This document shows, piece after piece, positions 11,025 through 27,650 of a stretch of 64,000 nt of DNA (position 1 is its first letter; the number at the start of each line of letters is the position of its first letter). The position numbers and the translations under genes are program-made. The stretch covers positions 1 through 64,000 of the forward strand of contig JAIQEX010000020.1 of NCBI GenBank assembly GCA_020073615.1, read 5' to 3'. Under the pieces are notes generated by a model, which worked only from the letters and a program-made list of their open reading frames with translations, ran no database searches and was not told the origin of the DNA. The stretch is from Terriglobia bacterium (GTDB taxonomy: Bacteria; Acidobacteriota; Terriglobia; Bryobacterales; Bryobacteraceae).

Positions 11025-11408
11025 TTGCGCGGCTTCGCGGATTTCGCGAGGCCTTTTTTTATGGGCACAACGACACTGAAATCACAAGAGAAGTCCGAAG
11101 ATAAGGCTTCCAAGAAACCCCGGGAGAGGGCATCAAAACTGACGGCGAAGAAGGCTCCCAGACCTTGCCGGGAGTGCAGCCGCTGGAACGAGATCAAGCA
11201 GAGACTTCGTGTTACCGAAGTGCTAGAGGATTCCATCGAGAAGGTGAAGAAGAAGCTTACGTCGGAGGAGTTCAAGCCGACGGTAGCCGACTATTTGAAG
11301 CTCCTGCAGGTAGAGAAGGATCTGGAGCGCGAGTTCGAGGACGGGAGTCCGAAGGAGATCGAGGTCACATGGGTCGAACCGTTAGTGACGTCCGACCCAA
11401 GCGCGTAG
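11025..11408 (+). CDS. Putative small terminase-like / DNA-packaging protein
   Basis: Small basic/coiled-coil ORF overlapping terL; SD AGGAGA 4 nt before TTG at 11025; alternative ATG at 11061. Confidence 0.55.
   Translation: MRGFADFARPFFMGTTTLKSQEKSEDKASKKPRERASKLTAKKAPRPCRECSRWNEIKQRLRVTEVLEDSIEKVKKKLTSEEFKPTVADYLKLLQVEKDLEREFEDGSPKEIEVTWVEPLVTSDPSA
11031..11060 (+). terminator. Rho-independent terminator-like hairpin in leader of virion cassette
   Basis: GGCTTCGCG-GATTT-CGCGAGGCC followed by T7. Confidence 0.75.
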
Positions 11409-12676
11409 AGATAACTTACCGCCCGTTGCCTTCACAGAAGCGGTTTCATCAACTGGATGGCCGCTTCAAGGGCTTTTCAGGACCGATTGGAAGCGGCAAG
11501 AGCCAGGCGCTCTGCCAGGAGGCTATACGGCTAAGTTACCTGAATCCGGGACGGATGGGGCTGCTGGGCGCGCCAACGTACCCAATGCTGCGAGATGCCA
11601 CGCAAGCAACGCTGTTCGAGATTCTGGAGGGAAGCAGGATCGCGTACGACCACAGTAAGGCAGAGAACGTAGTAGTTATCAAAGACACCCGTTCACGAAT
11701 ACTGTTCAGGCCGGTGGATGAGTTTGAACGGCTGCGCGGGACTAACCTGGCATGGTTCGGGCTGGACGAGTTGACTTACACGCAGGAGGAGGCGTGGCTG
11801 CGGCTGGAGGGGCGGCTGCGCGATCCCAAAGCTACGCGGCTTTGCGGATTCGCGGTGTGGACGCCGAAGGGTTACGACTGGGTGTACCGGAGGTTCATCG
11901 CCGACAAGGTGGGGGGATACCAGACGGTGCTGGCGAGGCCGTTTGAGAACCGGTACCTGCTGGACCGCATACCGGATTTCTACGACCACCTGAAGGACAG
12001 TTACGACCAGAAGTTTTATGAGCAGGAAGCGCTGGGGTCGTATCTGAACATGACCGGCGGGACGGTGTACAGCACATTCTCGCGGGGCACACATATCACG
12101 GAGTTGAGCGTACTGCCGCATTTACCGCTGTTCTGGACGATGGATTTCAACGTGGATCCGATGAGCTCGCTGATTGTGCAGATGGCGTACGGGAAGGTGC
12201 GGGTGCTGGACGAGATCGTGCTGCGGAATGCCACCACGAACGAGGCGTGCGAGGAGTTTCTGAAGCGGTATCCGAAGCACGATGCGGGGGTGGTGGTATA
12301 CGGGGACGCTTCGGGATTCCACAACCAGACGACGGGGGCGTCGGATTACGAGATGGTGCGGGAATACTTTCAGATCCACTCGACGACGCCGGTGCAGTAC
12401 CGGGTACCGAAGTCGAATCCCAGCGTACGGGAGCGCATCAACCTGACCAATGCGAGGCTGCTTTCGGCGGCGGGGGAGGTTGGGCTGGCGGTGGACAAGA
12501 AGTGCAAGGAGCTGATCAAAGACTTCGAGCAGGTGGCCTATAAGGCCGAGACGAACCTGATCGACAAGGACCGGGACCGGCTGCGGACCCATCTGTCGGA
12601 TGCGCTGGGGTATCTGTTGTGGCAGGAGTGCCGGGCGCTTCCGGTGGTGGGGGAGAGGCCGCAGAGGTTGTTCTAG
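11369..12676 (+). CDS. terL: Terminase large subunit
   Basis: Walker A-like GPIGSGKS, Walker B-like LAWFGLDEL, nuclease-like FWTMDFNVDPMSS and GDASG. Confidence 0.9.
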   Translation: MGRTVSDVRPKRVEITYRPLPSQKRFHQLDGRFKGFSGPIGSGKSQALCQEAIRLSYLNPGRMGLLGAPTYPMLRDATQATLFEILEGSRIAYDHSKAENVVVIKDTRSRILFRPVDEFERLRGTNLAWFGLDELTYTQEEAWLRLEGRLRDPKATRLCGFAVWTPKGYDWVYRRFIADKVGGYQTVLARPFENRYLLDRIPDFYDHLKDSYDQKFYEQEALGSYLNMTGGTVYSTFSRGTHITELSVLPHLPLFWTMDFNVDPMSSLIVQMAYGKVRVLDEIVLRNATTNEACEEFLKRYPKHDAGVVVYGDASGFHNQTTGASDYEMVREYFQIHSTTPVQYRVPKSNPSVRERINLTNARLLSAAGEVGLAVDKKCKELIKDFEQVAYKAETNLIDKDRDRLRTHLSDALGYLLWQECRALPVVGERPQRLF

Positions 12677-12709
12677 GGAGCGACCGGGGGCGCGGAGGAG
12701 AAAACATTG

Positions 12710-12795
12710 TTCACCGCCGAGACGCAGAGACGCCGAGGAAAAGCAGGTAAGGCAAGTCACGCCCGTTCTCGGCGCCTCCGCCTCTCGGCGGTGAA
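12710..12795. repeat. Palindromic MITE/REP-like element
   Basis: 28-nt arms TTCACCGCCGAGACGCAGAGACGCCGAG / CTCGGCGCCTCCGCCTCTCGGCGGTGAA with 3 mismatches. Confidence 0.75.
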
Positions 12796-12866
12796 TAAAG
12801 AACGCTGAGGGCGCAGAGGAAGCAGAGAAGGCGGGCGGGGGAGCGAAGGGGACGACGGAATTGAGT

Positions 12867-14243
12867 ATGGAAAACATCAACCGGGAGCATCCGGAGTATG
12901 TCGCGCGCAAGGCGATGTGGAGACAGTACAAAGACCTGTACGCGGGCGGCGAACAGTTGCGGGCGAGTGCCGCGGAATACCTGGTGCGGAGACATAAGGA
13001 GCCGGGGGAGGTGTACCAGGAACGGCTGAACCGGGTGTTCTACCAGAACTACATCGGCTCGATCATCGACTGGTATTCGGCGACACTGATGCGGCGCGAG
13101 CCGGTGCTGCTGTTTGAGGGGAGCGACGCGGCGGCGAAGGGGTTCTACAACGTGCTGGGGGAGGACTGCGACCTGAAAGGGACGAATCTCAGCGAGTTTT
13201 TCCGGCAGCGGTTCGTGGAGATGGCGGTGTGCGGGAGCAGTTACATCGTGGTGGACTTTCCGCGTGGGGGAGGCGGGGACAGGCCGGCGCCGCTGACACG
13301 GGCGGAAGAGGACGCCTCGGGCAGATCGCGGGCGTACCTGGTGGATTACGGGCCGGACGAGGTCATCAACTGGAGCTACGACCAGACGGGCGGGCTGGAA
13401 TGGGCGGTGATCCGGACGTCGTGCCTGCAGCAGTCGAAGGTGACGGACGCGAAGTGGGAGAAGGAGACGCGATGGATTTACTACGATCGCGAAAACTTCC
13501 AGGTATTCCGGAAGAGGCGCGAGGAGAGCGCGATCGAGCTGGTGGACGAAGGGCGGCACGGCCTGGCGGCGCTACGGCGGGTGCCGATGTTTCAGATGAA
13601 GGTGAGCGAGGGGCTGTGGCTGATGAACAAGTCGGCGCTGCTGCAGATGGAGCACTTCAACAAATCGAATGCGCTTTCGTGGGCGCTGACGATGGGGCTG
13701 TTCGCGACCCCGGTCGTATATTCGGACCGCGAATGGAACCAGATTGTGGGCGAATCCTATTACATCCAACTGGGGCCCAACGATAAGTTCGGGTGGACGG
13801 AGCCGGAGGGAAAGGTCTACCAGATCGCGGCGGACAACCTGGTGCAGCTCAAGGACGAGATTTACCGGGTTTGCTACCTGATGAACCAGGCGGGGAGCTC
13901 GAGCGGACTGAACCAGTCGGGGCTGAGCAAGCAGATGGATTTCGCGACGACGCAGGAGGTACTGCGGGCGTACGGCGATGCGGTGAAGGAGAGCCTGAAG
14001 CAGGTGTTGTGGGCGATCGCGGCGGCGCGGCAGGACGGGGTATCGATCGACGTACAGGGGCTGGACGAGTTCGACATCAACGCGCTGGGCGGGGAGTTGG
14101 ACGATGCCAAGAAGCTGCTGGATCTGGGGATCGGGTCGGAGACGCTGAAGAAGCAGGTGTTCAAGAAGCTGGCGTTCAAGTACCTGTGCGACGCACGGCA
14201 GGAGATTAAGAACAGGGTGGCGGAAGAGATCGACGGGGGGTGA
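12867..14243 (+). CDS. Phage portal protein (DUF4055-like)
   Basis: Position after TerL; NYIGSIIDWYSATLMRREPVL and SSGLNQSGLSKQMDFATTQEVLRAYGDAVK regions typical of DUF4055 portals. Confidence 0.75.
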   Translation: MENINREHPEYVARKAMWRQYKDLYAGGEQLRASAAEYLVRRHKEPGEVYQERLNRVFYQNYIGSIIDWYSATLMRREPVLLFEGSDAAAKGFYNVLGEDCDLKGTNLSEFFRQRFVEMAVCGSSYIVVDFPRGGGGDRPAPLTRAEEDASGRSRAYLVDYGPDEVINWSYDQTGGLEWAVIRTSCLQQSKVTDAKWEKETRWIYYDRENFQVFRKRREESAIELVDEGRHGLAALRRVPMFQMKVSEGLWLMNKSALLQMEHFNKSNALSWALTMGLFATPVVYSDREWNQIVGESYYIQLGPNDKFGWTEPEGKVYQIAADNLVQLKDEIYRVCYLMNQAGSSSGLNQSGLSKQMDFATTQEVLRAYGDAVKESLKQVLWAIAAARQDGVSIDVQGLDEFDINALGGELDDAKKLLDLGIGSETLKKQVFKKLAFKYLCDARQEIKNRVAEEIDGG

Positions 14244-14250
14244 GAAGACA

Positions 14251-14372
14251 GGGGCCGGGGGCCAGGGGCCAGGGGCTGGGGGCCAGGGGCCAGGGGCCGG
14301 GGGCCGGGGGCCGGGGGAAGGTGGCCTTCGGCTGCTTTTTTTGGGCTCGCTGCGCTCGCGGGGGGCCGGGTG
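14251..14372 (+). repeat. G-rich heptamer tandem repeat (GGGGCCA/G)n plus TTGGGCTCGCTGCGCTCGCGGGG tail, copy A
   Basis: Directly read; begins just after portal stop codon. Confidence 0.85.
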
Positions 14373-14401
14373 GAATCAAGAGTAGGGAAGACAGGAGAGT
14401 T

Positions 14402-14953
14402 ATGGACGGAATCGACATTCAAGGGATCGTGCGGCAGGCGATCCAGGAGTTCGTGAACAACGAGCAGGCGAAGAATGAGCCGGCGCACAGGGCGGAACTG
14501 GTTGAAGAGCGCAAGCGGAGAGAGCAACTGGAGCGCCGGATGAACGAATTGGTGGCGGAGAACAAGCACAGCCGGCAGGTGGCGGCGGAAGCGGAACGAG
14601 GGTCGGCGGTGAGGGCGGAATTGCAGCGGCTGGGCGTGGCCAAGATCGACCTGGCGTTCAAGGCAGTACAGGACGGGATCGTGCGCACGGAGGATGGGCG
14701 GCTGGTGGCCAAGGGCGAGAGCGGGGAGATGCCGGTGAAGGAATATCTCACGGCGTTCGTCAACGAGAATCCGGAATTTTTGCCGGCGCGCATCGCGGGG
14801 GGGACCGGGATGACGGCGACCCTGAAGGCCCCGGCAACGGGACGGGAGACGGTGAGCATGGAACAGATCCGTCCGGGGATGAGCGCGGAAGAGATGCAGC
14901 GGGTACGAGAGGAAATCGTGCGCGTAGCGTCGCAGACCCTGAAGGGCCTGTAG
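14402..14953 (+). CDS. Putative capsid scaffold protein
   Basis: Charged coiled-coil protein between portal and capsid genes (EERKRREQLERRMNELVAENKH...). Confidence 0.6.
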   Translation: MDGIDIQGIVRQAIQEFVNNEQAKNEPAHRAELVEERKRREQLERRMNELVAENKHSRQVAAEAERGSAVRAELQRLGVAKIDLAFKAVQDGIVRTEDGRLVAKGESGEMPVKEYLTAFVNENPEFLPARIAGGTGMTATLKAPATGRETVSMEQIRPGMSAEEMQRVREEIVRVASQTLKGL

Positions 14954-15040
14954 AGAAGTACCGGCGCTAAGAGGGAACCGGCGGAAGGGCCGCCGGCGCT
15001 AGTGGCGGCGGCAAGAACAACCAAGAAAGAAGGAGAAAAG

Positions 15041-15952
15041 ATGGCAGCAATAACCTCAACAAACGTCGCTAACGCGATCGTGAAGCTGGTGGCGGCGGAC
15101 GCATTGCCGGTGCTGGTAGGAAACCTGGTGATGGGGAACCTGGTGAATCGGGATTACGAGCCGGTGCTGGCGCAGGCCGGCGACACGATAAACGTGCCGA
15201 TTCCGCCCGTGATGGTGGCCAACAACATCCTGGAAGGCGGGACGGTGCAGACGCAGAATCCGAGTCTGGGGAACGCGCAGATCGTGCTGAACACGCACGC
15301 GGAGGCGACGTTCCAGATTCCGGACGTGACCAAGGTGCTGGCGGTTCCGGATCTGTTGAAGATCTACATGCAACCGGCGGTGGCGGCGATCGCGCAGAGA
15401 GTGGAGAGCGATCTACTGAGTCTGTACGCGGGATTCACGGCGAACGCCGCGGTGGGAACGCCGGGGACGCCGATCACGGAAGCGACGATCGACGCGGCGG
15501 AAACGGCGCTGTTTCTGTCGAAGATTCCGCCGAGCGAGCAGAAGTTCATGGTGGTGGATGCGGCGACGTATTCGACGTGGCGGCAGATCCCGCGGTTCAG
15601 CGAATTCCAGACCGCGGGGGACGCGGGGCTACGGGCGATCGTGGACGGGACGGTGGGGAAGGTGAAAGACTTCTTCGTGTTCCGTTCGCAATTCGTGCCG
15701 AAGACGGGGAGCACCCCGGTAACGACGCACAACATTGCGTTCGCGAAGGACGGTCTGGGGCTGGTGATCCGGCGGCTGCCGCAACCGCTGCCGGGGACGG
15801 GCGCCATTGCGGAGTATGCCGAGCTGGGCAACTTCGGGATGCGCGTGGTGATGAGCTACCAGCCGAACACACTGGCCCAACAGTTCACGGTGGATATTCT
15901 GTACGGCTGCGGCGTGCTGCGGAATGCGTCGGGCGTGCAGGTGAATACGTAG
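15041..15952 (+). CDS. Major capsid protein (P22-coat/HK97-fold like)
   Basis: 303-aa structural protein with AGDTINVPIPP and GNFGMRVVMSYQPNTLAQQFTVDILYGCGVLR; strong SD aaggagaa. Confidence 0.75.
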   Translation: MAAITSTNVANAIVKLVAADALPVLVGNLVMGNLVNRDYEPVLAQAGDTINVPIPPVMVANNILEGGTVQTQNPSLGNAQIVLNTHAEATFQIPDVTKVLAVPDLLKIYMQPAVAAIAQRVESDLLSLYAGFTANAAVGTPGTPITEATIDAAETALFLSKIPPSEQKFMVVDAATYSTWRQIPRFSEFQTAGDAGLRAIVDGTVGKVKDFFVFRSQFVPKTGSTPVTTHNIAFAKDGLGLVIRRLPQPLPGTGAIAEYAELGNFGMRVVMSYQPNTLAQQFTVDILYGCGVLRNASGVQVNT

Positions 15953-16063
15953 GGGCCAGGGGCCAGGGGCCGGGGGCCGGGGGCCGGGGGAGTGTTGGGC
16001 CCTTCGGGCCCGGCTTCCTTTGGGCTCGCTGCGCTCGCGGGGTTGGGGGCCGGGCTTCCGGCG
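15952..16063 (+). repeat. G-rich heptamer tandem repeat plus TTTGGGCTCGCTGCGCTCGCGGGG tail, copy B
   Basis: Same composite as 14251-14372; starts within the capsid stop codon; contains GGGCCCTTCGGGCCC hairpin. Confidence 0.85.
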
Positions 16064-16092
16064 CCAAGAGCTCGGACATTTATAGCAGGGGC

Positions 16093-16186
16093 AATTCGGG
16101 GACAGGCAACGAAATTCCGCGGCGCGGGCTTTTTTTGTTTTCTTTTGGATTTCGTGGCGCGGAATTTCGAAGCCAGTCCCCGAATT
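16093..16186. repeat. Long inverted-repeat element (REP/RAYT-hairpin-like)
   Basis: 29-nt arms AATTCGGGGACAGGCAACGAAATTCCGCG / CGCGGAATTTCGAAGCCAGTCCCCGAATT with 3 mismatches. Confidence 0.75.
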
Positions 16187-16205
16187 GAGAAAGAGGAGGA
16201 CGAGG

Positions 16206-16532
16206 ATGGATTTGAAGCTGTATTACCAGAAGATTCGTGACGTGGAAGCGAAGATCGTGGAGGCGTTTCCGGTGGTGGTGAGCCGGGAGACGGGGGACGG
16301 CGGCAAGGAAGGAATGCTGACGGAGACGACGCGGGCGATCGCCGCGAAGATGATCGCGGATGGAGCGGCGCGGCTGGCGAAGCCGGAGGAAGTGAAGGCG
16401 TTTCAGGAAGGGCGGGCGGAGGCGGTGCGGCTGGTGGAAGAGGCGGCAGCCGCGGCGAAGGTGCAGTTCACCATGTTTCCGACGTCGGAACTGAGCAGGC
16501 TGAGAGGCGCATTGCGGCCAGCGAAGGATTAG
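16206..16532 (+). CDS. Small virion-cassette protein (unknown)
   Basis: 108-aa ORF with SD gaggag, collinear with cassette. Confidence 0.6.
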   Translation: MDLKLYYQKIRDVEAKIVEAFPVVVSRETGDGGKEGMLTETTRAIAAKMIADGAARLAKPEEVKAFQEGRAEAVRLVEEAAAAAKVQFTMFPTSELSRLRGALRPAKD

Positions 16533-16540
16533 GCGGGGTC

Positions 16541-17302
16541 ATGGCTCTTTTCACAGACGGAGCGATATCGGGCATAGAAGATCTTACGGCGCAGGACTCG
16601 CAACTACTGAATGTGGCGAGCACGGAGGGGATCGACGTGACGCAGAAGCTGGCGGCGGCGCAAGAGGAGATCGGGCTGGAGATGCACACGCTGCTGACGA
16701 GGCTGAGCGGCATGGACCAACAGTTCTGGCTGGCCGCGCAACCGGACCTGGAGAGCGTGGTGGTGACGCCGGCACTGAGGCTGTGGCACACGTTCCGAGC
16801 TTTGGAGTTGGTGTACAGCGATGCGTACAACAGCCAGTTGAACGACCGGTACGCGGGGAAGCGGGACCAGTTCCACAAGATGGCGAAGTGGGCGTACGAG
16901 AAGCTGGTGGAGACGGGGATCGGGCTGGCATGGCTGCCGGTGGCGCGGGCGGCGACCCCGGTGGTGGCGGCGGCGCCGGGCAGCGTGCCGGACGGGACGT
17001 ACTACGTGAGCATGACGTGGACGAACCGCAACGGCGAAGAAGGGGCGGCGGCGATACCGGCGGCGATCACGGTTGCGGGGAGCACCTTCCTGGTGCAGCC
17101 CGGGGAAGCGCCGCGGAACGCGACCGGATGGAACGTGTACGTGGGCGAGGATCCGGGGGCGATGTCGCTGAAGAGCGAGGCGCCGATGGCACCGGAAGAG
17201 AGCTGGCAGGCGGGCGAATGGAAGACGGGAGGCCGGGCGCCAGGCTGCGGGCAATCGCCGAGCTACATGAAACCGGTGCCGCGGGTGATCCAGAGGGGCT
17301 GA
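16541..17302 (+). CDS. Putative head-tail connector/adaptor with C-terminal Fn3/Ig-like domain
   Basis: N-terminal helical part; C-terminal GTYYVSMTWTNRNGEEGAAAIPAAITV...NATGWNVYVGEDPG beta-domain. Confidence 0.55.
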   Translation: MALFTDGAISGIEDLTAQDSQLLNVASTEGIDVTQKLAAAQEEIGLEMHTLLTRLSGMDQQFWLAAQPDLESVVVTPALRLWHTFRALELVYSDAYNSQLNDRYAGKRDQFHKMAKWAYEKLVETGIGLAWLPVARAATPVVAAAPGSVPDGTYYVSMTWTNRNGEEGAAAIPAAITVAGSTFLVQPGEAPRNATGWNVYVGEDPGAMSLKSEAPMAPEESWQAGEWKTGGRAPGCGQSPSYMKPVPRVIQRG

Positions 17303-17799
17303 TGACGAAAAAGATCGGGAGCGCAATCACGGCCAAGGTCATTCAACGGATTACGGGTCCGGGGGGAGTGAACGCGGGACTGGGGGCACTGGAGCTGCCG
17401 GGGCAGGCGGCGGGCGGGCTGGATGCGGGCCAGGTGCGGTCGCAGAACGTGGCGGCGGACGTGGCGGAGCGCAGCGGGACGGCGCAGTATCCGGCGGCGA
17501 ACGTGTACTGCGAAAAGATCGTGAACAGCCTGGAGGAAAAGTTCCGCACGTTTTCGGGAAGCGTGCAAATGGCGATTGAGGTGCGGCATTCGCAGGACCG
17601 TCTGGAGGGCCTGGAAGACGCCGTGGAGCTATACGCGGACGCGGTGATGCAGGTGCTGAACGCGGGGCGGGGCGATTGGGGCGACGGCATGTTTTACGGC
17701 GGTGAATACCAGGTGTCGTTTGGGGCCGTGAAGCACGGGGGGAAGAACTTCATCCAGGCGGCCAAAATCACATTCGAGATTGGAGTGAGCAGGAACTAG
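17302..17799 (+). CDS. Putative tail completion/terminator protein
   Basis: TGATG overlap with previous gene; FSGSVQMAIEVRHSQDRLEGLEDAVELYADAVMQVL; position before tail tube. Confidence 0.5.
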   Translation: MTKKIGSAITAKVIQRITGPGGVNAGLGALELPGQAAGGLDAGQVRSQNVAADVAERSGTAQYPAANVYCEKIVNSLEEKFRTFSGSVQMAIEVRHSQDRLEGLEDAVELYADAVMQVLNAGRGDWGDGMFYGGEYQVSFGAVKHGGKNFIQAAKITFEIGVSRN

Positions 17800-17800
17800 T

Positions 17801-18973
17801 ATGTCCTCATATATTTCCTCAAACGCAAACCGGTTTTACACGGCGCTGGAGAGCGGGTACGGGAAGGTGCCGGCGATCGGATCGAGCGCAAGGATTCCGG
17901 CCGTGAAACTGACGGTGCGGCAGCAGCAGGAGGCCGCGGAGCGGAAAGACAAGACGGGCAGCCGGACGTTCGCGGGACGGCCGGCGGGAGGCCGGCGGCG
18001 GACGAACTTCGAGCTGAAGACGTACCTGACGACGTGGCAGAAGACGGCGGCGGGTCCGGGATACGGGCCGCTGTTTCAGGCGGCGCTGGGCGGGGCGCCA
18101 CAGTCCTTTGCGGGCGGGGCGGGATCGAGCACGGGCGCCGGGCGGGTCACCTTTGGAGCGGCGCACGGACTGAGCGCGGGACAGGCGGTGGCGTGCGGAG
18201 GGGAAGTGCGGTTTGTGGGAGCGATTGTGGACACGCACACGGTGCAGTTGAATGCGCCGTTTACGGCCGTGGGGAACGTGACCTTGGGGGCGGCGGTGAC
18301 GTACGCTCCGGCGACCGAGCTGGGGAGTGTGAGCGTATTCGACTACTGGAGCCCGGCGACGGCGGTGCAGCGGTTATTGTGCGGCGCGGCGGTGGACCAG
18401 ATGGAGATTGCGGTGAACGGGGACTACCACGAGTTTCAGTTCAGCGGCCTGGCACAGGATGTGCTGGACAGCAGCAGCTTCTCCGGCGGCCAGGCGGCGC
18501 AGCTTCAGAGCTTTCCATTGGAGCCGGCGGTGGACGCGTTCGATTATACGATCGTGCCGGGGAACATGGGGCAGGCGTGGCTGGGGACGTCGCCGACGCA
18601 GTTTTTCACGATCACCTCGGCGACCATCGCGCTGAAGAACGAACTGGACACGCGCTCGCGGGAGTTCGGATCGAACGTGCCGCGGGCGATATCGCCGGGG
18701 CAGCGGTCGGTTACGGCGGCCTTCGAACTGTTCAGCCTGGACGACGACGCGACGAAGGGACTGTACCAGGCGGCGCGGCAACAGTCGCCGATCAGCGTGA
18801 TGCTGCAGTTGTACGTGACGTGGGGGCTGCGGGGGGTTTCGGGGCTCCATGTGGACGGGGCTGAGGCGACGCCCGAGACGCTGGCCGAGGCGGGGCCGGA
18901 AGATCTGTTCCGGGAAGCGCTGGCGGCGGTGCGGGCGGAGACGGGGCTGAGCGGCGAAGAACGAAAAAACTGA
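17801..18973 (+). CDS. Major tail tube-like protein; 0-frame product ending at slippery site
   Basis: 390-aa structural ORF located between tail completion and tape-measure-like genes. Confidence 0.6.
   Translation: MSSYISSNANRFYTALESGYGKVPAIGSSARIPAVKLTVRQQQEAAERKDKTGSRTFAGRPAGGRRRTNFELKTYLTTWQKTAAGPGYGPLFQAALGGAPQSFAGGAGSSTGAGRVTFGAAHGLSAGQAVACGGEVRFVGAIVDTHTVQLNAPFTAVGNVTLGAAVTYAPATELGSVSVFDYWSPATAVQRLLCGAAVDQMEIAVNGDYHEFQFSGLAQDVLDSSSFSGGQAAQLQSFPLEPAVDAFDYTIVPGNMGQAWLGTSPTQFFTITSATIALKNELDTRSREFGSNVPRAISPGQRSVTAAFELFSLDDDATKGLYQAARQQSPISVMLQLYVTWGLRGVSGLHVDGAEATPETLAEAGPEDLFREALAAVRAETGLSGEERKN
18964..18970 (+). promoter_or_regulatory. Predicted programmed -1 ribosomal frameshift site A_AAA_AAC
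   Basis: cgA AAA AAC TGA in tail-tube frame; -1 frame is open from here to 19320; hairpin starts 5 nt downstream. Confidence 0.75.
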
Positions 18974-19320
18974 TAGTCGCCTTCCACTTTCAATTTTCCA
19001 ACCAGGCCGGTTGGAAGTGCGACGTTTGCCGGAAGTCCGGTCTGGAGAAAAAGCGGCGCTGCGGGTGGCTGGCGGGGTTCGAGGATGGGGAGGGACCTCC
19101 GGTGTGGGCAAGGAAGCACGTCGCGCTGACGACTTGTCCGAAATCGTATATCACAGCGGAGAGCGAGTCGCTGGTGGAGGAGTTTTTCGTGAGGCGGCGG
19201 CTGGGTGGGTTCGATATCGAGGGGCTGAGCGCGCGGCAGGTGGAAGCATTCGTGATTCTGGAGAGGGCGCTGGCAGCAGAGAGGAACGATGGGCAGCACG
19301 ACACAAGACAAGCTCTTTGA
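18970..19320 (+). CDS. -1 frame extension / tail-assembly-chaperone-like protein (Cys-rich, no good start codon)
   Basis: Open frame LIVAFHFQFSNQAGWKCDVCRKSGLEKKRRCGWLAGFEDGEGPPVWARKHVALTTCPKSYITAESESLVEEFFVRRRLGG...; only in-frame non-CTG start is GTG 19102, after the Cys motif. Confidence 0.65.
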   Translation: MIVAFHFQFSNQAGWKCDVCRKSGLEKKRRCGWLAGFEDGEGPPVWARKHVALTTCPKSYITAESESLVEEFFVRRRLGGFDIEGLSARQVEAFVILERALAAERNDGQHDTRQAL

Positions 19321-19942
19321 GAATTTCACGGAGGCCTCGGGCGGAGCGACGCAAGGGGCAGATTCGCTGGGCAGCCTGACCGACGAACTGGCAAGTGCGC
19401 TGACGGCGGCGACGCACGCGGCGAGCGCGGCACCGCAGGCCAGGCAGAGCACGAGCGGAACGGCGAGTACGAGCGGAACGGCGAGCACGAGCGGGAGCAG
19501 CGCGGGGAGCAAGGTATTGTCGATCGCGGAGACGGTGCTGGAGAGCGGCTTGGGGCTGGTGCCGCTGATTGGCGGGTTGTTGGGCCTGTTTGGCGGAGGG
19601 GGGCAGGCGGCGCCGCCTCCGCTGGTGAAGTACGCGATGCCGGAGAAGCAGTCCTTCGAGGGCGCGGATACGGGCAGCGGGATGAGCGACGCGGATTACG
19701 ACCAGATGGGGATGGCGCGGGCATACAGCGGCCCGCCGGATGGAGCGAGCGCGGCGCCGGCGAGCGCGGCCGTCTCCACGGGCGGCGGGGCGGCGGCGAG
19801 TGCCGGGGGGCCGCAGATCCACGTGAATGTGCAGACCATGGATGCGCAATCGTTTTTGGACCACAGCAACGAGATCGCGCAGGCGGTGCGGCAGGCGATG
19901 TTGAATTCCAGCTCGATCAACGACGTGGTGAACGACCTCTGA
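19289..19942 (+). CDS. Very short tape-measure-like protein
   Basis: Gly/Ala-rich with hydrophobic GLGLVPLIGGLLGLFGGGG and C-terminal VNVQTMDAQSFLDHSNEIAQAVRQAMLNSSSINDVVNDL typical of tape-measure C-termini. Confidence 0.6.
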   Translation: MGSTTQDKLFENFTEASGGATQGADSLGSLTDELASALTAATHAASAAPQARQSTSGTASTSGTASTSGSSAGSKVLSIAETVLESGLGLVPLIGGLLGLFGGGGQAAPPPLVKYAMPEKQSFEGADTGSGMSDADYDQMGMARAYSGPPDGASAAPASAAVSTGGGAAASAGGPQIHVNVQTMDAQSFLDHSNEIAQAVRQAMLNSSSINDVVNDL

Positions 19943-19943
19943 C

Positions 19944-20303
19944 ATGGCGACCTTTCCGAAGCTAAAGACGAGCGCGGTGGCGCAGTATCCGGCAACGAAG
20001 TCGGTGCGGTTTCAAAACCAGACCTTACGGTTCGTGGACGGCGCGGAGCAGCGCTACCGGGACTCGGCGGGACCGCTGCACCAATGGGAAATCCGGCTGG
20101 AGGAGCTGGACGAGAGCGAGATGGCGGCGATCGAGGAGTTCTTTGCGGCGAACCAAGGGCGGCTCGGGAGCTTCGCGTTCACCGATCCCTGGGACGGCCA
20201 TGCCTACGCAAATTGCAGCCTGGCGAGCGACGAACTGACGCTGCGCGCACTGGCGGAGATGCGGGGTAAGACGTCGCTGATTGTGAGCGAGAACCGGGGA
20301 TAG
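19944..20303 (+). CDS. Distal tail-like protein (DUF2460-like)
   Basis: LEELDESEMAAIEEFFAANQGRLGSFAFTDPWDGHAYANC. Confidence 0.55.
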   Translation: MATFPKLKTSAVAQYPATKSVRFQNQTLRFVDGAEQRYRDSAGPLHQWEIRLEELDESEMAAIEEFFAANQGRLGSFAFTDPWDGHAYANCSLASDELTLRALAEMRGKTSLIVSENRG

Positions 20304-20306
20304 GAC

Positions 20307-21089
20307 ATGCTGGTATACCCACAACTAGCGACCGGGGCGTTGAGCCAGTTTCCGGTCGAGAAGCGGCGGCGCCTGCGCACGGTGGTGAACGCCGCGGCGG
20401 ACGGGAGGTCGATCAGACTGGCGGACCCGGCGGCGGAAGCGACGGAATGGCAGTTGCAATACGCGGGGCTGAGCGACGCGGAGCTAGCGGCATTGCAGCA
20501 GTTCTTCCTGGCCGCGGAGGGCTCGCTGAACGGCTTCACGTTTTTGGATCCGGCGGGCAACCTGTTCGCGTGGAGCGACCACCTGGACAACGCGGTGTGG
20601 GCGCGGGGGCCGTTCCTCGCGGTTTCGGGAGAGGTGGCGGACCCGATGGGCGGGAGCAACGCGTGGCACACGGTGAATTCCGGCGGGGGCGCGCAGAGCA
20701 TTACACAGACGCTGGGCGCGCCGGGTGGATACACGTATTGTCTCAGCGCATACGCCAGAGCGTCACAACCGGCGGTGGCGACTTTGCTGCGCGGCACGGA
20801 TCGCGCGGACCGGCAGGTGGGGACGGAGTGGAAGCGGATTGCGTTCGCGGGAACGGGCGATGCGAAGGCGGCATCGCTGGTGTTTGGCCTGGAGGCGCCG
20901 GCGGGGGCGGCACTCGATATTTTCGGACTGCAAGTAGAGCCGCAGGCCGGAGCATCCGGTTACAAAGCGGCGACCAGCGGCGGCGTGTACGAGAACGCGC
21001 GGTTTGGCGACGATACTTTTCGCTTTACCACGACAGCGCCGGATTGCCATTCGGCCACGGTGAATATTTTCCATGCAAGCCATCTCTGA
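20307..21089 (+). CDS. Distal tail-like domain fused to lectin/CBM-like domain
   Basis: YAGLSDAELAALQQFFLAAEGSLNGFTFLDPAGN parallels previous gene; C-terminal GGYTYCLSAYARA...LDIFGLQVEPQAGASGYKA. Confidence 0.5.
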   Translation: MLVYPQLATGALSQFPVEKRRRLRTVVNAAADGRSIRLADPAAEATEWQLQYAGLSDAELAALQQFFLAAEGSLNGFTFLDPAGNLFAWSDHLDNAVWARGPFLAVSGEVADPMGGSNAWHTVNSGGGAQSITQTLGAPGGYTYCLSAYARASQPAVATLLRGTDRADRQVGTEWKRIAFAGTGDAKAASLVFGLEAPAGAALDIFGLQVEPQAGASGYKAATSGGVYENARFGDDTFRFTTTAPDCHSATVNIFHASHL

Positions 21090-24000
21090 TCTGAAGGAAC
21101 AGGCGGTCACGGACACGCCGCTGCTGGTGTTCGATTGCCTGCTGCCGAACGGGCAGACGGAGCACTGGAGCACGCACCGGGTGACGGTGCCGGGGAAGAC
21201 GTACGAAGCCCGCGTGATGCAGCACAGCGCGTTCGACATACAGACGGCATCGGACCAGGGAATCGACGGGAGCCCGCGAATTTCGGTGGTGCTAGCCAAT
21301 GCGGACTCGCACTTTTCGGAAATCGCGCGAGAGATCGGATGGAAGGGCGCGCGGCTGACGGCGGGGTTCCTGTTTTACGATTTGCGGAACGACGTACCGC
21401 TGACGGATGTGGCGGTGGTATTTCAAGGGACCTGCAACCCGCCGGACGAGATCAAGGAATCGACGTTTCGCGTGACGGCGATCAACCGGATGAACCTGCA
21501 ACGGCTGCTGCTGCCGCAGGTACGGATTCAGCGGCGGTGCCCGTGGGAATTCCCCGCGACGGAAGATCAGAGGACGGAAGCGGTGGACGGCGGAGTGCAC
21601 GGGAAGTATTCGCGGTATTACCGCTGCGGATATTCGGCGGGGGTGAGCGGCGGCACGGGATTGCTGAATGGCGGCGGTCCGTTCACGTCGTGCGGGTACA
21701 CCAGAAGCGACTGCCAGGCGCGGGGGATGCTGAACCGGTTCGGCGGGCTGGAGTTCATTCCGCCGGCGATCGCGGTGCGCAGCTATGGAAAAGACTGGTC
21801 GACATCGGCCGTGGCGGTGAACCAGGCGAGGTACAACGACTTTGTTCCGATGGTGTACGGGACGGCGTGGTACGCGCCGACGGTGGTGTTCGCGCGCAAT
21901 GACGGCAACCTGACGCGGATGGAAGTGCTGCTGGGGATCGGCGAGATGCAGGGCGTGCTGACCGTGCTGGTGAACGACGTGGAGATTCCGATGGGGGTCT
22001 CGGGCACGAACATGACGGGCACGGGTTGGTACAACGTGATGACGCTGGGGACGCGCGACGGCAACTTCGACAACAACTTTCTGGACGCGAGCGGAAAGCC
22101 CGTGGGGGACCCCTACGGCAGCATGGCGTACCTGTCGGTAGTGGTTCCGAACCGGCTGAACAGCGGCACTTCGGCGCCCAGCGTGAAGGTGCTGGCACAG
22201 GGGCTGAAGGTGCCGGTTTACGCGGCGGACGGGACATACCTGGGCGAACAGTTCTCGAGCAATCCGGCGTGGATCCTGCAGGACGTGCTACGGCGGAGCG
22301 GGTGGGAATCGGCGGAGATCGATACCACCAGCTTCGCTGTGGCGGCGGCATACTGCGACGAAGCGATCCAGGCGAAGGACCTGAACGGAAACGCGATTGA
22401 GCTTTCGCGTTTTCAGTGCAACGTGGTGCTGCAAAGCCGGCGCAGCGCCGGGGACCTGGTGCGGGGGATCCGCAACACGGCGCGGCTATTCCTGACGTAC
22501 GGGCCGGGGGGGGCGCTGCAATTGGGCGTGGAGAACACGGCGGCGCTGGAACAGCCAAGCAAGGCGGCGGGGTCGAACAGCAAGGAATCCTTGGACGGGG
22601 GCTGGCCGAGCTACGAATTCGGCGATGGGAGCAACGGCTACTCGGGGATTCTACGGCGGCAGAATGGCGAGCCGAGCATCACGCTGACATCGCGCGGCAT
22701 CGCGGACACGCCGAACCGGCTGACGGTGGAGTTTCAAGATGCGCTGAACGGGTATCAGCAGGACAGTTACTCGATGGTGGACGCAGACGACGTGGCGCTG
22801 GCGGGCCAGGAAGTGTCCAAGACGCTCGCGGCGCTGGGGCTGCCGAACTACGACCAAGCCGCGCGGATTCTGAAATTCAACCTCGACAAAACAGTTCGCG
22901 GAAACACCTATATCGCGTTCGACACGAGCGTGAAAGCCTTTGGCATCCGGCCGGGCGACTTGATTACGGTGACGTACCTAAAGGAAGGCTTCAACCGGCA
23001 GCCGTTTCGCGTGCTGAAGATTTCGCCGGCAACGAACTACCGGACATCCACCATCACGGCGCAGATTCACGACGATGCGTGGTACGCGGACACGAACGGG
23101 CAGACGACGTCGGGCACGGGCGCGGCACAGCAAGGCGGCACCGGGATTGGCGTACCGAAGCCGCTGATGGGCAGCGTGGTGGACGACGACGGGGAGATTG
23201 AGTTCGGGGTGGAGGAGACCTCGGAGGCGAGCGGCGATGGAACGGCGGAAGCGAGCGTGTCGGTGAGTTTCATTCCGCCTGCGATGGCCACGGCGGCAGG
23301 GCCGGGAATCCCACTGATCAGCCTGATCACGAACGTGGGAGCGGGCGGCACGCTGAAGAGCGGCGAGACGCTGTACTACGCGGTGTCGGGGAGCGATGGG
23401 GCGGGGAACGAGAGCGGCCTCTCGTTCATCGTGAGGGCGGTGATTGCGAGCGATGGGAGCGCGGTGACGCTCTCGGGGCTGAGCTTTGCGGCGGGAACGA
23501 GCGCGTTTCAGGTGTATCGCGGGACGACGCCGGCGCAGTTGTTCCGCATTGCTTCGGACCAGGCGGTGGCCAGCGAGTTTACCGATACGGGCCTGGCGAA
23601 GCAGTTGATCGCCCCGCCGGATGCGAGTTTCGATCACGCGAATTTCTATTGGCGGATGGAATTGCAGCCGGAAAGCGGAGTGACGGCACACGCGGCGACA
23701 ATGGTGGGCAACGGGGCGCTGGAGATGACGGCCAACGAATACCGCGGAATGACGGTGCGGATTACACGCGGCAACGGCGCAGGGCAAGAGCGGACGATCG
23801 CGGCGAACGACGCAACGAGCCTGACGATTGCGCCGCCATGGGTGGTGGAGCCCGATGCGGGGAGCTCTTTTGCGGTGGCGGAATCGGGGTGGCACTTCGG
23901 GGCGCTGACGAAGAGCAGCCCGGTGCAGTTTGCGATTCCGAACCGGCCGGGAGAGGTAGTGCAGATTTCGGGCCGCGCGGCCAACGTGAACGACGTGGAA

Positions 24001-24954
24001 TGCTCGCCGGAGCTTTCGACGGTGACGCGGTGGCAGATTGGCGGGGCGGGCGGCGGGGATGCGGACGTTCCGGCGCAACCGTCATTCGGCCTGGGGGCGG
24101 GGCAGAGCGGCGGAACGGTCGAGTTGAGCGGCATCTCGTTTACGGACCTGACGAACACGCGATCGGTTACGTCGGCCACTTTGACGCTGCACTACTGGGA
24201 CGAACTACAGGGAACACCGGCGATCGGTCTGGCGAATGCGATGGGGGCGGGCGACCTATCGCTGAGCCTGAATGCGGCCGGGCCGGGAGCAGTTGGGAGC
24301 ATTCTCCAGATTGAACGCGAGATTCTGCGGGTGGAGGAAGTGACCGACAACGGCACCGGATACCGGGTAACGCGTGGCGTTCATGGCAGCCAGACGGCCG
24401 CGCACGCGGCACAGACGCCGGTCTATCATCTGGCGAGTAAGACGGTCATAACGCCCTTTCCCCAAGAGTTCTTTGGCAGCGCGTACAGCGGAAGTTGGGG
24501 TTATTCCATCCTTCTGCCGGATGTAAGAGTCGGCAGCGCCGAACTGTTCGTTACGAATTCGAAAGGGAACAGCACGGCGGGAAGCATCTTTCTGACACAC
24601 AACGACGACAGCGGGCTGCGGACGCTCTCGGGCGGGCAGTACTCGATCCAGGTGGACGGATATCTGGCGGTGGATCAATCGGTGGCGCCGGCTTTGGTGG
24701 TGGAATCGTCACACGCGGTGCGGGACGTGTTCGCCATTCTCGGGACGGCAGCGGATGCGCCGGTGCAACTAGAGCTGAAGGCCGATGGCGCGCCGTACTG
24801 CACGTTGAGCTTCGCGGCGGGGATGATTGTTTCAAACAGCGTGAGCGGCACGACGCTGGCGCCGCTCACATCGGGGGCGAAGGTGACTTTGTCGGTAGTG
24901 TCGGTGGGCCAGACCTATCCGGGCGCGGACCTCACCGTACTGATCCGACTGTGA
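21073..24954 (+). CDS. Tail hub/tip protein with lambda gpL/GTA gp13-like Cys motif and Phage-tail_3-like region
   Basis: 1293 aa; RRCPWEF...RCGYSAGVSG...TSCGYTRSDCQARG cysteine pattern; FGIRPGDLITVTYLKEGFNRQPFRVLKISPATNYRTSTITAQIHDDAWY. Confidence 0.7.
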   Translation: MQAISDLKEQAVTDTPLLVFDCLLPNGQTEHWSTHRVTVPGKTYEARVMQHSAFDIQTASDQGIDGSPRISVVLANADSHFSEIAREIGWKGARLTAGFLFYDLRNDVPLTDVAVVFQGTCNPPDEIKESTFRVTAINRMNLQRLLLPQVRIQRRCPWEFPATEDQRTEAVDGGVHGKYSRYYRCGYSAGVSGGTGLLNGGGPFTSCGYTRSDCQARGMLNRFGGLEFIPPAIAVRSYGKDWSTSAVAVNQARYNDFVPMVYGTAWYAPTVVFARNDGNLTRMEVLLGIGEMQGVLTVLVNDVEIPMGVSGTNMTGTGWYNVMTLGTRDGNFDNNFLDASGKPVGDPYGSMAYLSVVVPNRLNSGTSAPSVKVLAQGLKVPVYAADGTYLGEQFSSNPAWILQDVLRRSGWESAEIDTTSFAVAAAYCDEAIQAKDLNGNAIELSRFQCNVVLQSRRSAGDLVRGIRNTARLFLTYGPGGALQLGVENTAALEQPSKAAGSNSKESLDGGWPSYEFGDGSNGYSGILRRQNGEPSITLTSRGIADTPNRLTVEFQDALNGYQQDSYSMVDADDVALAGQEVSKTLAALGLPNYDQAARILKFNLDKTVRGNTYIAFDTSVKAFGIRPGDLITVTYLKEGFNRQPFRVLKISPATNYRTSTITAQIHDDAWYADTNGQTTSGTGAAQQGGTGIGVPKPLMGSVVDDDGEIEFGVEETSEASGDGTAEASVSVSFIPPAMATAAGPGIPLISLITNVGAGGTLKSGETLYYAVSGSDGAGNESGLSFIVRAVIASDGSAVTLSGLSFAAGTSAFQVYRGTTPAQLFRIASDQAVASEFTDTGLAKQLIAPPDASFDHANFYWRMELQPESGVTAHAATMVGNGALEMTANEYRGMTVRITRGNGAGQERTIAANDATSLTIAPPWVVEPDAGSSFAVAESGWHFGALTKSSPVQFAIPNRPGEVVQISGRAANVNDVECSPELSTVTRWQIGGAGGGDADVPAQPSFGLGAGQSGGTVELSGISFTDLTNTRSVTSATLTLHYWDELQGTPAIGLANAMGAGDLSLSLNAAGPGAVGSILQIEREILRVEEVTDNGTGYRVTRGVHGSQTAAHAAQTPVYHLASKTVITPFPQEFFGSAYSGSWGYSILLPDVRVGSAELFVTNSKGNSTAGSIFLTHNDDSGLRTLSGGQYSIQVDGYLAVDQSVAPALVVESSHAVRDVFAILGTAADAPVQLELKADGAPYCTLSFAAGMIVSNSVSGTTLAPLTSGAKVTLSVVSVGQTYPGADLTVLIRL

Positions 24955-27650
24955 TGGAACAGCTTACTAAGTTGCGGCCGGACCGCGACCTGCAATGTTA
25001 CTTTCACCGGCCTTCGTCGGCAGCGGCTCTGAGCGAAGCCAGCGCGAGCGGCTTTACGGTGTCGGGATGCTGGCGCCAGCAGTTCGACTGGGCAGTAGTG
25101 GAGTGGAACCGGGACAATGTCTTCGAGCATCCCGCTCTGCGCAACCTGCCCGACGGCGACTTGAGCAGCCTGCATCTCACCTACGAGGAAGCGCGCAGCA
25201 ACTGCGTAGGTCTCGATTCCAATCTTTACCCGACAGTGGAATGGCCGTATCTCAGGATTTGGGCCGATTCGAACGGGGTCGAGGCGCTTTACGAAGTGCC
25301 GCTCAAGAATCACGCGACGGCGACGGGCGGCAGCTACACGGCAGCAACGGCGGAATTCGAACTGGAAGGCACGCCGGCGGCGGGGGATTACATCGAGCTG
25401 GCCTGGCTGGATCAACATTTCAATTACCGGGTCGGGGCGGGCGACACATTGGAAAGCGCTGCCGGCGCGCTGGCGGCCATTATCACGGCCAACCAGGCCG
25501 CCGGCGGAGTCAGCGCATCGGCGGACGGGGCGCGGATTGTGCTGACATACCTCGGGGCGCCGGGCTCGAATGGAAACCGGATCGGCGTGTATGGGACCGT
25601 ACATGGCGTGGCGACCGAGAACTGGGCACCCTGGTGGAACACTTTCAGCGGCGGAACATCGCCCGACCGATGGCGAGTGGATCTGGATTTCAGCAACCTG
25701 CGGGACGTGAATGGGACGCAGGTTCCGACCTCGAGCGTTCGGAAGATGCGATGGACCTGGGCCGCCGATTTACAGACGGGGGACTTCGCGCGTAGCGAGT
25801 TCGCGGTTGTGGTTACGAACTGGACGGTCACGGGGACGAACCTGCTGTACGAGGTGGCGGGTCCGGGCAGCAGGCGGATTGAAGACGATGCGCCGGATGT
25901 CTCGTATGCGGGAGCGTGGACGGAAGAGCGTGGCAATTATTCGGGCGGATCAATCCGCTGGACTGCGACGCCGGGGGCGCAATTGCGCTGCACCTACACG
26001 GCGGGAGCGGCGCATACTTTGTACCTGGGAACACGGCGCGCGGATGCGGGCGGGCGGATCACGGTGCAGGTGGATGCGAATCCGTCGGAGACGGTGGATT
26101 TGAAGCTGAGCGGCGAAGACGTACTGGTGCGAGTTCCATTGGGACAGTTGACGGCACAAAGCCATGCCGTCACGATCACGCACAGCGGCAGCCCGGGATC
26201 GTACTTTTACTTTGACTTCATCGAGGTTGCGATACCGACTAATGTTGTGCCGTCATTCGGCGCGGTGGCGACGACTACGCTGGCTACCGATTGGGACACG
26301 GACCACTCCATTGCGATCGCTCCGCAGAGGACGGCATGGCTGCTCCAGACACTCGGCTTTCATGGCCGAGCCAACCATTACGCGGGGGCGCTGTGGTTTT
26401 ACGAGCTGTGCCGGCCCGGCCAGCAATACGCGGCAGGAACGGTCACGTTCGCGGGTGCCCCGGAATTCGGGAAGACGACGCAGGTTGTCGTGGGGCAATC
26501 CCCAATGACCCATGTAAACCTGATCGGCGACACGGCAGAGAGCGTGGCGAAATGTTTCGAGTTGCTGATCAACGCCGGATCGACCGGCGTGTGGGCAAGA
26601 GTGGAGGGCGCGACGCTCACGATCACGGCGCGCGCCATGGGGACCGAGGGCAACGGCACTGGTCTTTCGGCGAGCACCGGCAGCACGGGGTTCAGCGCCA
26701 TGGCAAGCGGCCCCGTGCTTGCGGGCGGCGTGGACGGGCGGTGGCAGACAGATCTGACTGCCGTGCCGCGCATGAACCGCGCGGCGCGCGACTGGAGTCG
26801 CAGCTATTTTCGGGCGTTGAAGGGCTACGGAATCGGCGTGGCGGCGGGGTTCAGCATGGAATTGCAGCACGGGGACGACAGCGTGGCGGCGGGGATCGCC
26901 CAGAGGTATCCGAATGGCGACGCGGCATGGCTGAATACTCCGGCATTGCAGACGAATTTCGGACCGGCCACCACAGCGTTCTGGAAGCAGGCCTATGCGG
27001 ACATGGCGGGGGTGATGGCGGACGCGGCGGTGCCGCCGTATCTGCAATTCGGCGAGGTGCAGTGGTGGTACTTCGCGGCTGCGTCGGGGATGCCGTTTTA
27101 CGATGCGTACACGACGAGCTCGTTCCAAGCGGCATACGGGCGGCCGATGACGGTCATCACGAGCCAGAACGCGGATCCCGGTCCGCTGGCGCAGGAGTGC
27201 GCGTTGTTGCCGAAGCTCATCGGCGAATTCACGGATGCGATCGCGGATTTCGTGCGGCAGACGTATCCCGACGCACGTTTTGAGGTGCTGTATCCGCCGG
27301 ACGTGAACGACACGCCGCTCAACAAGATCATCAATTTTCCAGCATCCTATTGGACACCGGCGAACCTGGCTTGCCTGAAGACGGAGAACTTTACCTACAC
27401 GGGCGACCGGAACCTGGACAAAGCGCGCGAGTCCATTGTGTTGCCGATGCGTAACGGGTTTCCGCCCTCACAGGCGAGCCACCTGGTAGGGATTGGCGAA
27501 TACACTACGCCGTGGCAGAAGGAACAACGGCTGGCACTCGGCGCGGGAGTGGAATCGATCGTTTTGTTTGCACTGGACCAGTTTTGTTTGATCGGTTACG
27601 ACTTGCCGCTGGATCGCGGTGCCCGCCGGGCCCTATTCATGGGCCGGTAG
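24954..27650 (+). CDS. Large tail-tip protein with TIM-barrel/glycoside-hydrolase-like C-terminal region
   Basis: 898 aa, TGATG overlap with hub gene; PPYLQFGEVQWWYFAA...SHLVGIGEYTTPWQKEQRLALGAGVESIVLFALDQFCLIGYDLPL resembles barrel strands. Confidence 0.6.
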   Translation: MEQLTKLRPDRDLQCYFHRPSSAAALSEASASGFTVSGCWRQQFDWAVVEWNRDNVFEHPALRNLPDGDLSSLHLTYEEARSNCVGLDSNLYPTVEWPYLRIWADSNGVEALYEVPLKNHATATGGSYTAATAEFELEGTPAAGDYIELAWLDQHFNYRVGAGDTLESAAGALAAIITANQAAGGVSASADGARIVLTYLGAPGSNGNRIGVYGTVHGVATENWAPWWNTFSGGTSPDRWRVDLDFSNLRDVNGTQVPTSSVRKMRWTWAADLQTGDFARSEFAVVVTNWTVTGTNLLYEVAGPGSRRIEDDAPDVSYAGAWTEERGNYSGGSIRWTATPGAQLRCTYTAGAAHTLYLGTRRADAGGRITVQVDANPSETVDLKLSGEDVLVRVPLGQLTAQSHAVTITHSGSPGSYFYFDFIEVAIPTNVVPSFGAVATTTLATDWDTDHSIAIAPQRTAWLLQTLGFHGRANHYAGALWFYELCRPGQQYAAGTVTFAGAPEFGKTTQVVVGQSPMTHVNLIGDTAESVAKCFELLINAGSTGVWARVEGATLTITARAMGTEGNGTGLSASTGSTGFSAMASGPVLAGGVDGRWQTDLTAVPRMNRAARDWSRSYFRALKGYGIGVAAGFSMELQHGDDSVAAGIAQRYPNGDAAWLNTPALQTNFGPATTAFWKQAYADMAGVMADAAVPPYLQFGEVQWWYFAAASGMPFYDAYTTSSFQAAYGRPMTVITSQNADPGPLAQECALLPKLIGEFTDAIADFVRQTYPDARFEVLYPPDVNDTPLNKIINFPASYWTPANLACLKTENFTYTGDRNLDKARESIVLPMRNGFPPSQASHLVGIGEYTTPWQKEQRLALGAGVESIVLFALDQFCLIGYDLPLDRGARRALFMGR

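Follow-up and report, generated by a model that had tools for sequence, protein, structure and literature searches.

The closest described system is the G/GT tail assembly chaperone cassette of phage lambda (PMC5009743), in which, as in similar cassettes of other tailed phages, two overlapping ORFs lie between the tail tube and tape measure genes, a -1 slip occurs near the end of the first ORF (at G_GGA_AAG in lambda), and the extension is reached only through this slip. A different arrangement is known from the Listeria phages A118, A500 and PSA, where a tail protein itself receives a C-terminal extension, through a +1 slip (PMC5009743). The tail assembly chaperone of phage HK97 (gp13; PDB entry 2OB9) is a further point of reference, both for its fold and for its position in the tail module. 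Among elements that are no longer ordinary phages, the Rhodobacter-type gene transfer agent RcGTA is a single-copy, largely vertically inherited head-tail cluster with a DUF2460 protein, a Phage-tail_3 hub and a short tape measure.

The window, i.e., the whole 64-kb stretch of DNA analysed here, contains a head-tail cluster (Table 1) that very probably includes a G/GT tail assembly chaperone cassette worked by -1 ribosomal frameshifting, of which the copy in the window itself is damaged or misassembled. The relatives of this cassette show overlapping ORFs between the tail tube and the tape measure, a slippery heptamer in register, and a second ORF (hereafter T) without a start of its own, as in lambda. 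In contrast to lambda, the slip site is A_AAA_AAC, it is followed by a conserved two-part stem, the first ORF (hereafter G) and T are unrecognizable by sequence, T contains a four-cysteine segment and has no fold match, and the cassette is part of a chromosomal single-copy cluster. Frameshifting of this kind is well understood; what the present locus adds is a T product that was missing, along with two protein families outside Pfam and PHROGs.

Table 1. Coordinates of the features of the head-tail cluster and the G-T junction in the window
Feature	Coordinates	Strand	Evidence or remarks
Whole head-tail cluster	11165..27650	+	Terminase large subunit, portal, P22-type coat protein, connectors, tube, G/T, tape measure, DUF2460 proteins, tail hub, non-contractile-sheath-like protein
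Tail-tube gene, truncated (last ~50 residues of relatives missing)	17801..18811	+	PHROG tail family 290, E 2e-10; congener alignment ends at 18811
Putative deletion junction, 2-nt microhomology	18810..18811	+	Two blastn blocks overlapping by 2 nt
C-terminal part of G, fused in frame to the tube fragment; TGA 18971-18973	18812..18973	+	
Slippery heptamer A_AAA_AAC	18964..18970	+	In-register conservation among relatives
T, -1 frame extension, 116 residues, with four-cysteine (zinc-ribbon-like) segment	18970..19320	+	
Conserved outer stem, 5' arm GTCGC, 5 nt after the heptamer	18976..18980	+	Pairing compared with synonymous null; compensatory changes
Second conserved helix, 5' arm TTCCA	18982..18986	+	Pairing compared with null
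Inner hairpin (18996-19003/19009-19016) of the preliminary description	18996..19016	+	Clade-specific alternative to the second helix
Second conserved helix, 3' arm TGGAA, shared with the clade-specific inner stem	19012..19016	+	
Conserved outer stem, 3' arm GCGAC	19019..19023	+	Pairing and compensatory changes
Short tape-measure-like gene, 217 aa, overlapping the end of T	19289..19942	+	Weak C-terminal match, PHROG 3779, E 0.002

The G gene and its apparent fusion to the tail tube in the window

In the relatives, a tail tube gene with its own stop codon is followed by a separate G ORF of about 121 codons (the protein begins with M.YES and ends with ERKN), the heptamer, and the -1 ORF encoding T, so that G and T occupy the interval between the tail tube and the tape measure, with the ORFs overlapping. 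The corresponding 390-aa ORF of the window, seen only in this assembly, consists of a tail tube fragment and the C-terminal ~54 residues of G. An alignment of the window with the congener G001 (locus L002) yields two blocks, 17995-18811 and 18810-19353. About 508 nt of the congener sequence are absent from the window; they encode the last ~50 residues of the tube and, past a spacer of GC-rich repeats, the first ~69 residues of G. The segment immediately downstream of the junction encodes a product that shares 91% identity with the last 55 residues of the separate G of the congener. The missing N-terminal segment of G is not found elsewhere in the genome to which the window belongs. A search of IMG/VR provides no independent support for the fusion junction, and is uninformative in this respect because the T junction of the window is itself absent from that collection. 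The gap might reflect either a real deletion or an assembly error; with the sequence as it stands, a slip in the window would yield a 506-aa tube-G-T hybrid that is probably non-functional. GGGGCC-type 7-nt tandem repeats are present between other genes of the cluster (14249-14326 and 15951-15990), and a repeat of this type also occurs in the congener, within the spacer between tube and G that is absent from the window.

These comparisons bear on the proposal of the preliminary description of a slip-dependent extension of the tail tube itself, in which case the tube and the tube-T product would both be tail subunits. The tube and the slip site indeed share one ORF in the window, a layout superficially similar to that of the Listeria phages, for which frameshift products of major tail proteins are documented (PMC5009743). 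However, in the congener and in the relatives with readable upstream sequence, the tube and G are separate, and the slip site ends G; furthermore, ~50 residues at the end of the tube and the first half of G are absent from the fused ORF, so that the extension is not joined to an intact tube. Thus, the probability that the tail tube is the frameshifted gene appears to be very small. The part of the proposal that concerns frameshifting stands, with the heptamer, the stem and the start codon evidence from about 150 relatives behind it, but the gene that ends at the slip site is G.

Searches of Pfam, PHROGs and the sequences of solved structures started with G detect no meaningful match, and no homologs of G are found in deposited phages. 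The structural model of G is confident (mean pLDDT of 88), and its best match in the PDB is the HK97 tail assembly chaperone, although the similarity is weak (E 0.78, TM 0.44-0.49) and unaccompanied by detectable sequence similarity; several of the viral models that match G carry the name tail assembly chaperone, with E-values that do not fall below 0.1. A chaperone fold is possible for G, and its position between the tube and a short tape measure supports the assignment of the G/GT type. The points against a G/GT cassette are the weakness of this fold match, the lack of sequence matches to chaperone families, a junction that reads GAGAAAC, and the lower shiftiness of A_AAA_AAC in Escherichia coli (see below for the latter two).

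The slippery heptamer and the -1 reading frame

The 0 frame that starts at 17801 ends with cgA AAA AAC TGA, and the -1 frame is open from the heptamer to the TGA at 19318-19320; both coordinates and frames agree exactly with the preliminary description. The heptamer alone is unremarkable because AAAAAAC occurs 4 times on both strands of the whole 64 kb, compared to 3.0 occurrences expected by chance (only one occurrence falls within the phage ORFs of the window); its conservation, in contrast, is remarkable. Examination of 137 distinct junctions identifies A_AAA_AAC in 133, A_AAA_AAT in 2, and GAGAAAC and AAGAATC in one each; the last of these (L139) was left out given that the sequence upstream is not G, so that the heptamer is found in the exact register at 135 of the 136 valid junctions, which share kinship and are not independent draws. 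The identity between T sequences drops to ~40% and below, and at this distance, synonymous sites at the junctions should be saturated. The codon usage of the same G genes (AAA in 63 of 285 Lys codons, AAC in 71 of 90 Asn codons, and A in the third position of 136 of 1062 Arg codons) gives a joint expectation of ~2% for the heptamer. All 20 further genomes, picked as divergent or finished (one of them, G044, had been counted already), keep the heptamer, 17 as AAC and 3 as AAT, and two of the 20 genomes belong to other families of the class. The conservation of the heptamer in homologous cassettes, suggested earlier as a check, is thereby confirmed, and the relatives contradict the converse expectation of homologs that lack the heptamer and have a normal start codon for the downstream ORF.

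The sole valid junction without the heptamer (L011 in genome G017), which reads GAGAAAC, is otherwise intact in G, T and the stem; it might be due to an error in the sequence, to decay, or to the use of another slip site. E. coli, an organism with a single lysine tRNA, shows much more slipping on A_AAA_AAG than on A_AAA_AAC (review, PMC5009743). The genome of the window encodes tRNA-Lys for both anticodons, CUU and UUU (L248 and L260), and the dedicated CUU tRNA may be a reason for the use of A_AAA_AAC instead of A_AAA_AAG.

In the window, T contains no ATG, GTG or TTG between the preceding stop and a conserved tryptophan (Trp15), and the same holds for 54 of the 137 junctions with respect to the preceding in-frame stop. 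The first codon of T after the slip encodes leucine in all 137 cases, through six different codons (CTG, CTA, CTC, CTT, TTA and TTG). Given these two features, T is most simply read through from upstream. The alternative, independent initiation of T in coupling with the end of G, would involve re-initiation at a CTG that overlaps the stop codon (CTGA) or at a different unusual start codon. Such a CTG is present in many genomes, and some have a GTG or TTG further upstream in the frame of T; nevertheless, the first codon of T is not CTG at 52 of the 137 junctions while the residue is always leucine, the heptamer and the stem are left unexplained, and the upstream sequence pairs less well with the anti-Shine-Dalgarno than expected from the synonymous null (mean z +0.59). 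This scenario likewise appears to be very improbable. By the same measure, an upstream Shine-Dalgarno-like stimulator of frameshifting is not enriched.

As with G, searches of Pfam, PHROGs and the sequences of solved structures started with T yield no meaningful match, and although the model of T is confident (mean pLDDT of 87), it has no match in a viral fold library. By sequence comparison, then, G and T appear to represent protein families that are unrecognized in Pfam and PHROGs.

The RNA stem downstream of the heptamer

The consensus fold GUCGC-UUCCA ... UGGAA-GCGAC begins 5 nt past the heptamer; its outer part corresponds to the stem noticed originally in the window and is conserved in the relatives. 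Across a diverse set of 63 sequences, the five outer pairs are formed in 98.4% of the cells, compared to 84.0 +/- 1.2% in a null where codons are redrawn synonymously for the same proteins, and the second helix is formed in 99.4% of the cells compared to 96.8 +/- 0.5%; when either pairing partner is slid by 1-3 nt, pairing in this set is at most 64%. Pairing thus exceeds what the protein sequence and codon usage require. The wobble base of Val3 is C in 131 of 132 sequences, against a background of 16%, and the wobble bases of Cys17 and Asp18 are similarly skewed. Divergent genomes contain compensatory sets (GTCGC/GCGAC, CTCGC/GCGAG or GCGGG, GCCGC/GCGGC, and ATCGC/GCGAT), with the changes in the stem accompanied by coupled residue changes, from Val-Asp to Leu-Glu or Ala-Gly, for which there is not obviously a good explanation at the protein level. 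Global folding energy is weak (mean z -0.63, compared to -0.41 and -0.56 in control windows), so the case for the stem rests on pairing and covariation.

The inner stem of the preliminary description is present in the window, but as a general conserved element it is rejected: only 60.5% of its pairs form in the diverse set and 73% over all distinct sequences, and it is clade-specific, the conserved inner helix being 18982-18986/19012-19016. One divergent lineage (L282, L283 and L285) combines A_AAA_AAT with a shorter T loop and a GCCGC/GCGGC stem in place of GTCGC/GCGAC.

A mixed population of mRNAs produced by transcriptional slippage on the six-A run, with no ribosomal slip, is as improbable as independent initiation: an A run is present at every site and reaches ten A in one genome (L162), but in nearly all cases it has a length of exactly six, with C or T next and in a single register, runs as short as six slip little in bacterial transcription, and a conserved RNA stem 5 nt downstream is typical of ribosomal frameshifting.

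Taken as sequence evidence, these features strongly support programmed -1 ribosomal frameshifting at the G-T junction. Most ribosomes would stop just past the heptamer and release G. When A_AAA_AAC is occupied by tRNA-Lys in the P site and by tRNA-Asn in the A site, a minority of ribosomes would re-pair one base back on AAA_AAA, aided by the stem-loop and possibly also by the adjacent stop codon, and would go on with CTG into T to produce GT. The analogy with lambda suggests that G and GT coat the tape measure and that the T part recruits tail tube subunits.

The head-tail cluster and its inheritance

Of 61 related genomes searched with the -1 product, 34 contain one match each. A scan of a genome collection finds 53 loci, all labelled Acidobacteria at some level, many of them Bryobacterales or Solibacter-type, and a scan of IMG/VR identifies 551 confirmed relatives, 80 of which were kept. 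T is carried, as a rule in one copy per genome, by 84 of the 102 sampled members of the family to which the window belongs, and by 3 other genomes of the class sample. Gene order is conserved from the terminase through to the tail hub in 20 other genomes. The coat protein is 70-90% identical among 20 genomes; in deposited phages, this protein has only distant relatives, in Streptomyces and Corynebacterium phages. The tape measure is 182-246 aa long in most relatives. The long tail protein encoded at 24495-27650 matches Pfam PF23845, the TIM barrel of non-contractile tail sheath proteins (E 9e-17), and is an unusual component beside a short tape measure; it is present in most of the syntenic genomes.

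The tree of the concatenated cluster genes shares 8 of 18 splits with the rpoB tree (random mean of 0.3, maximum of 3), with one conflict at 95% support. Single-copy, largely vertical inheritance across genera is a feature of gene transfer agents (GTAs), and a domesticated particle fits better than an active prophage because the cluster is single-copy and its tree largely follows that of rpoB. Like RcGTA, the cluster combines this mode of inheritance with a DUF2460 protein, a Phage-tail_3 hub and a short tape measure; unlike RcGTA, it has a P22-type coat protein and the G/T frameshift cassette, and belongs to a different phylum. The acidobacterial cluster resembles the GTAs of Alphaproteobacteria that are reported to co-evolve, and a limited literature search finds no published GTA in this acidobacterial group.

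These observations suggest a domesticated, GTA-like element. The near-invariant frameshift in a single-copy chromosomal cluster suggests, in addition, that the tail genes are selected as a working machine, rather than being part of a decaying prophage. The chances seem about even that this is a family-wide GTA-like particle of Bryobacteraceae, selected across many genera, with the chaperone ratio set by a conserved frameshift with a covarying stem and with a new cysteine-rich T domain, and hundreds of "viral" soil contigs in IMG/VR that carry a relative of T may represent the same chromosomal cluster. The findings point to a GTA-like element in Acidobacteria, with relatives that abound in public collections of viral contigs, and the question of GTAs outside Alphaproteobacteria could be put to a direct test in soil bacteria that are abundant.

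A scan of the adjacent genes shows that those adjoining the cluster are of host type (glycosyltransferase, O-antigen ligase). The genes that flank the cluster in the window are unmatched in 19 other regions. In a genome from another genus (locus L231 in genome G020), both are present, the glycosyltransferase upstream and the O-antigen ligase downstream, and the cluster is probably located at the same chromosomal site as in the window.
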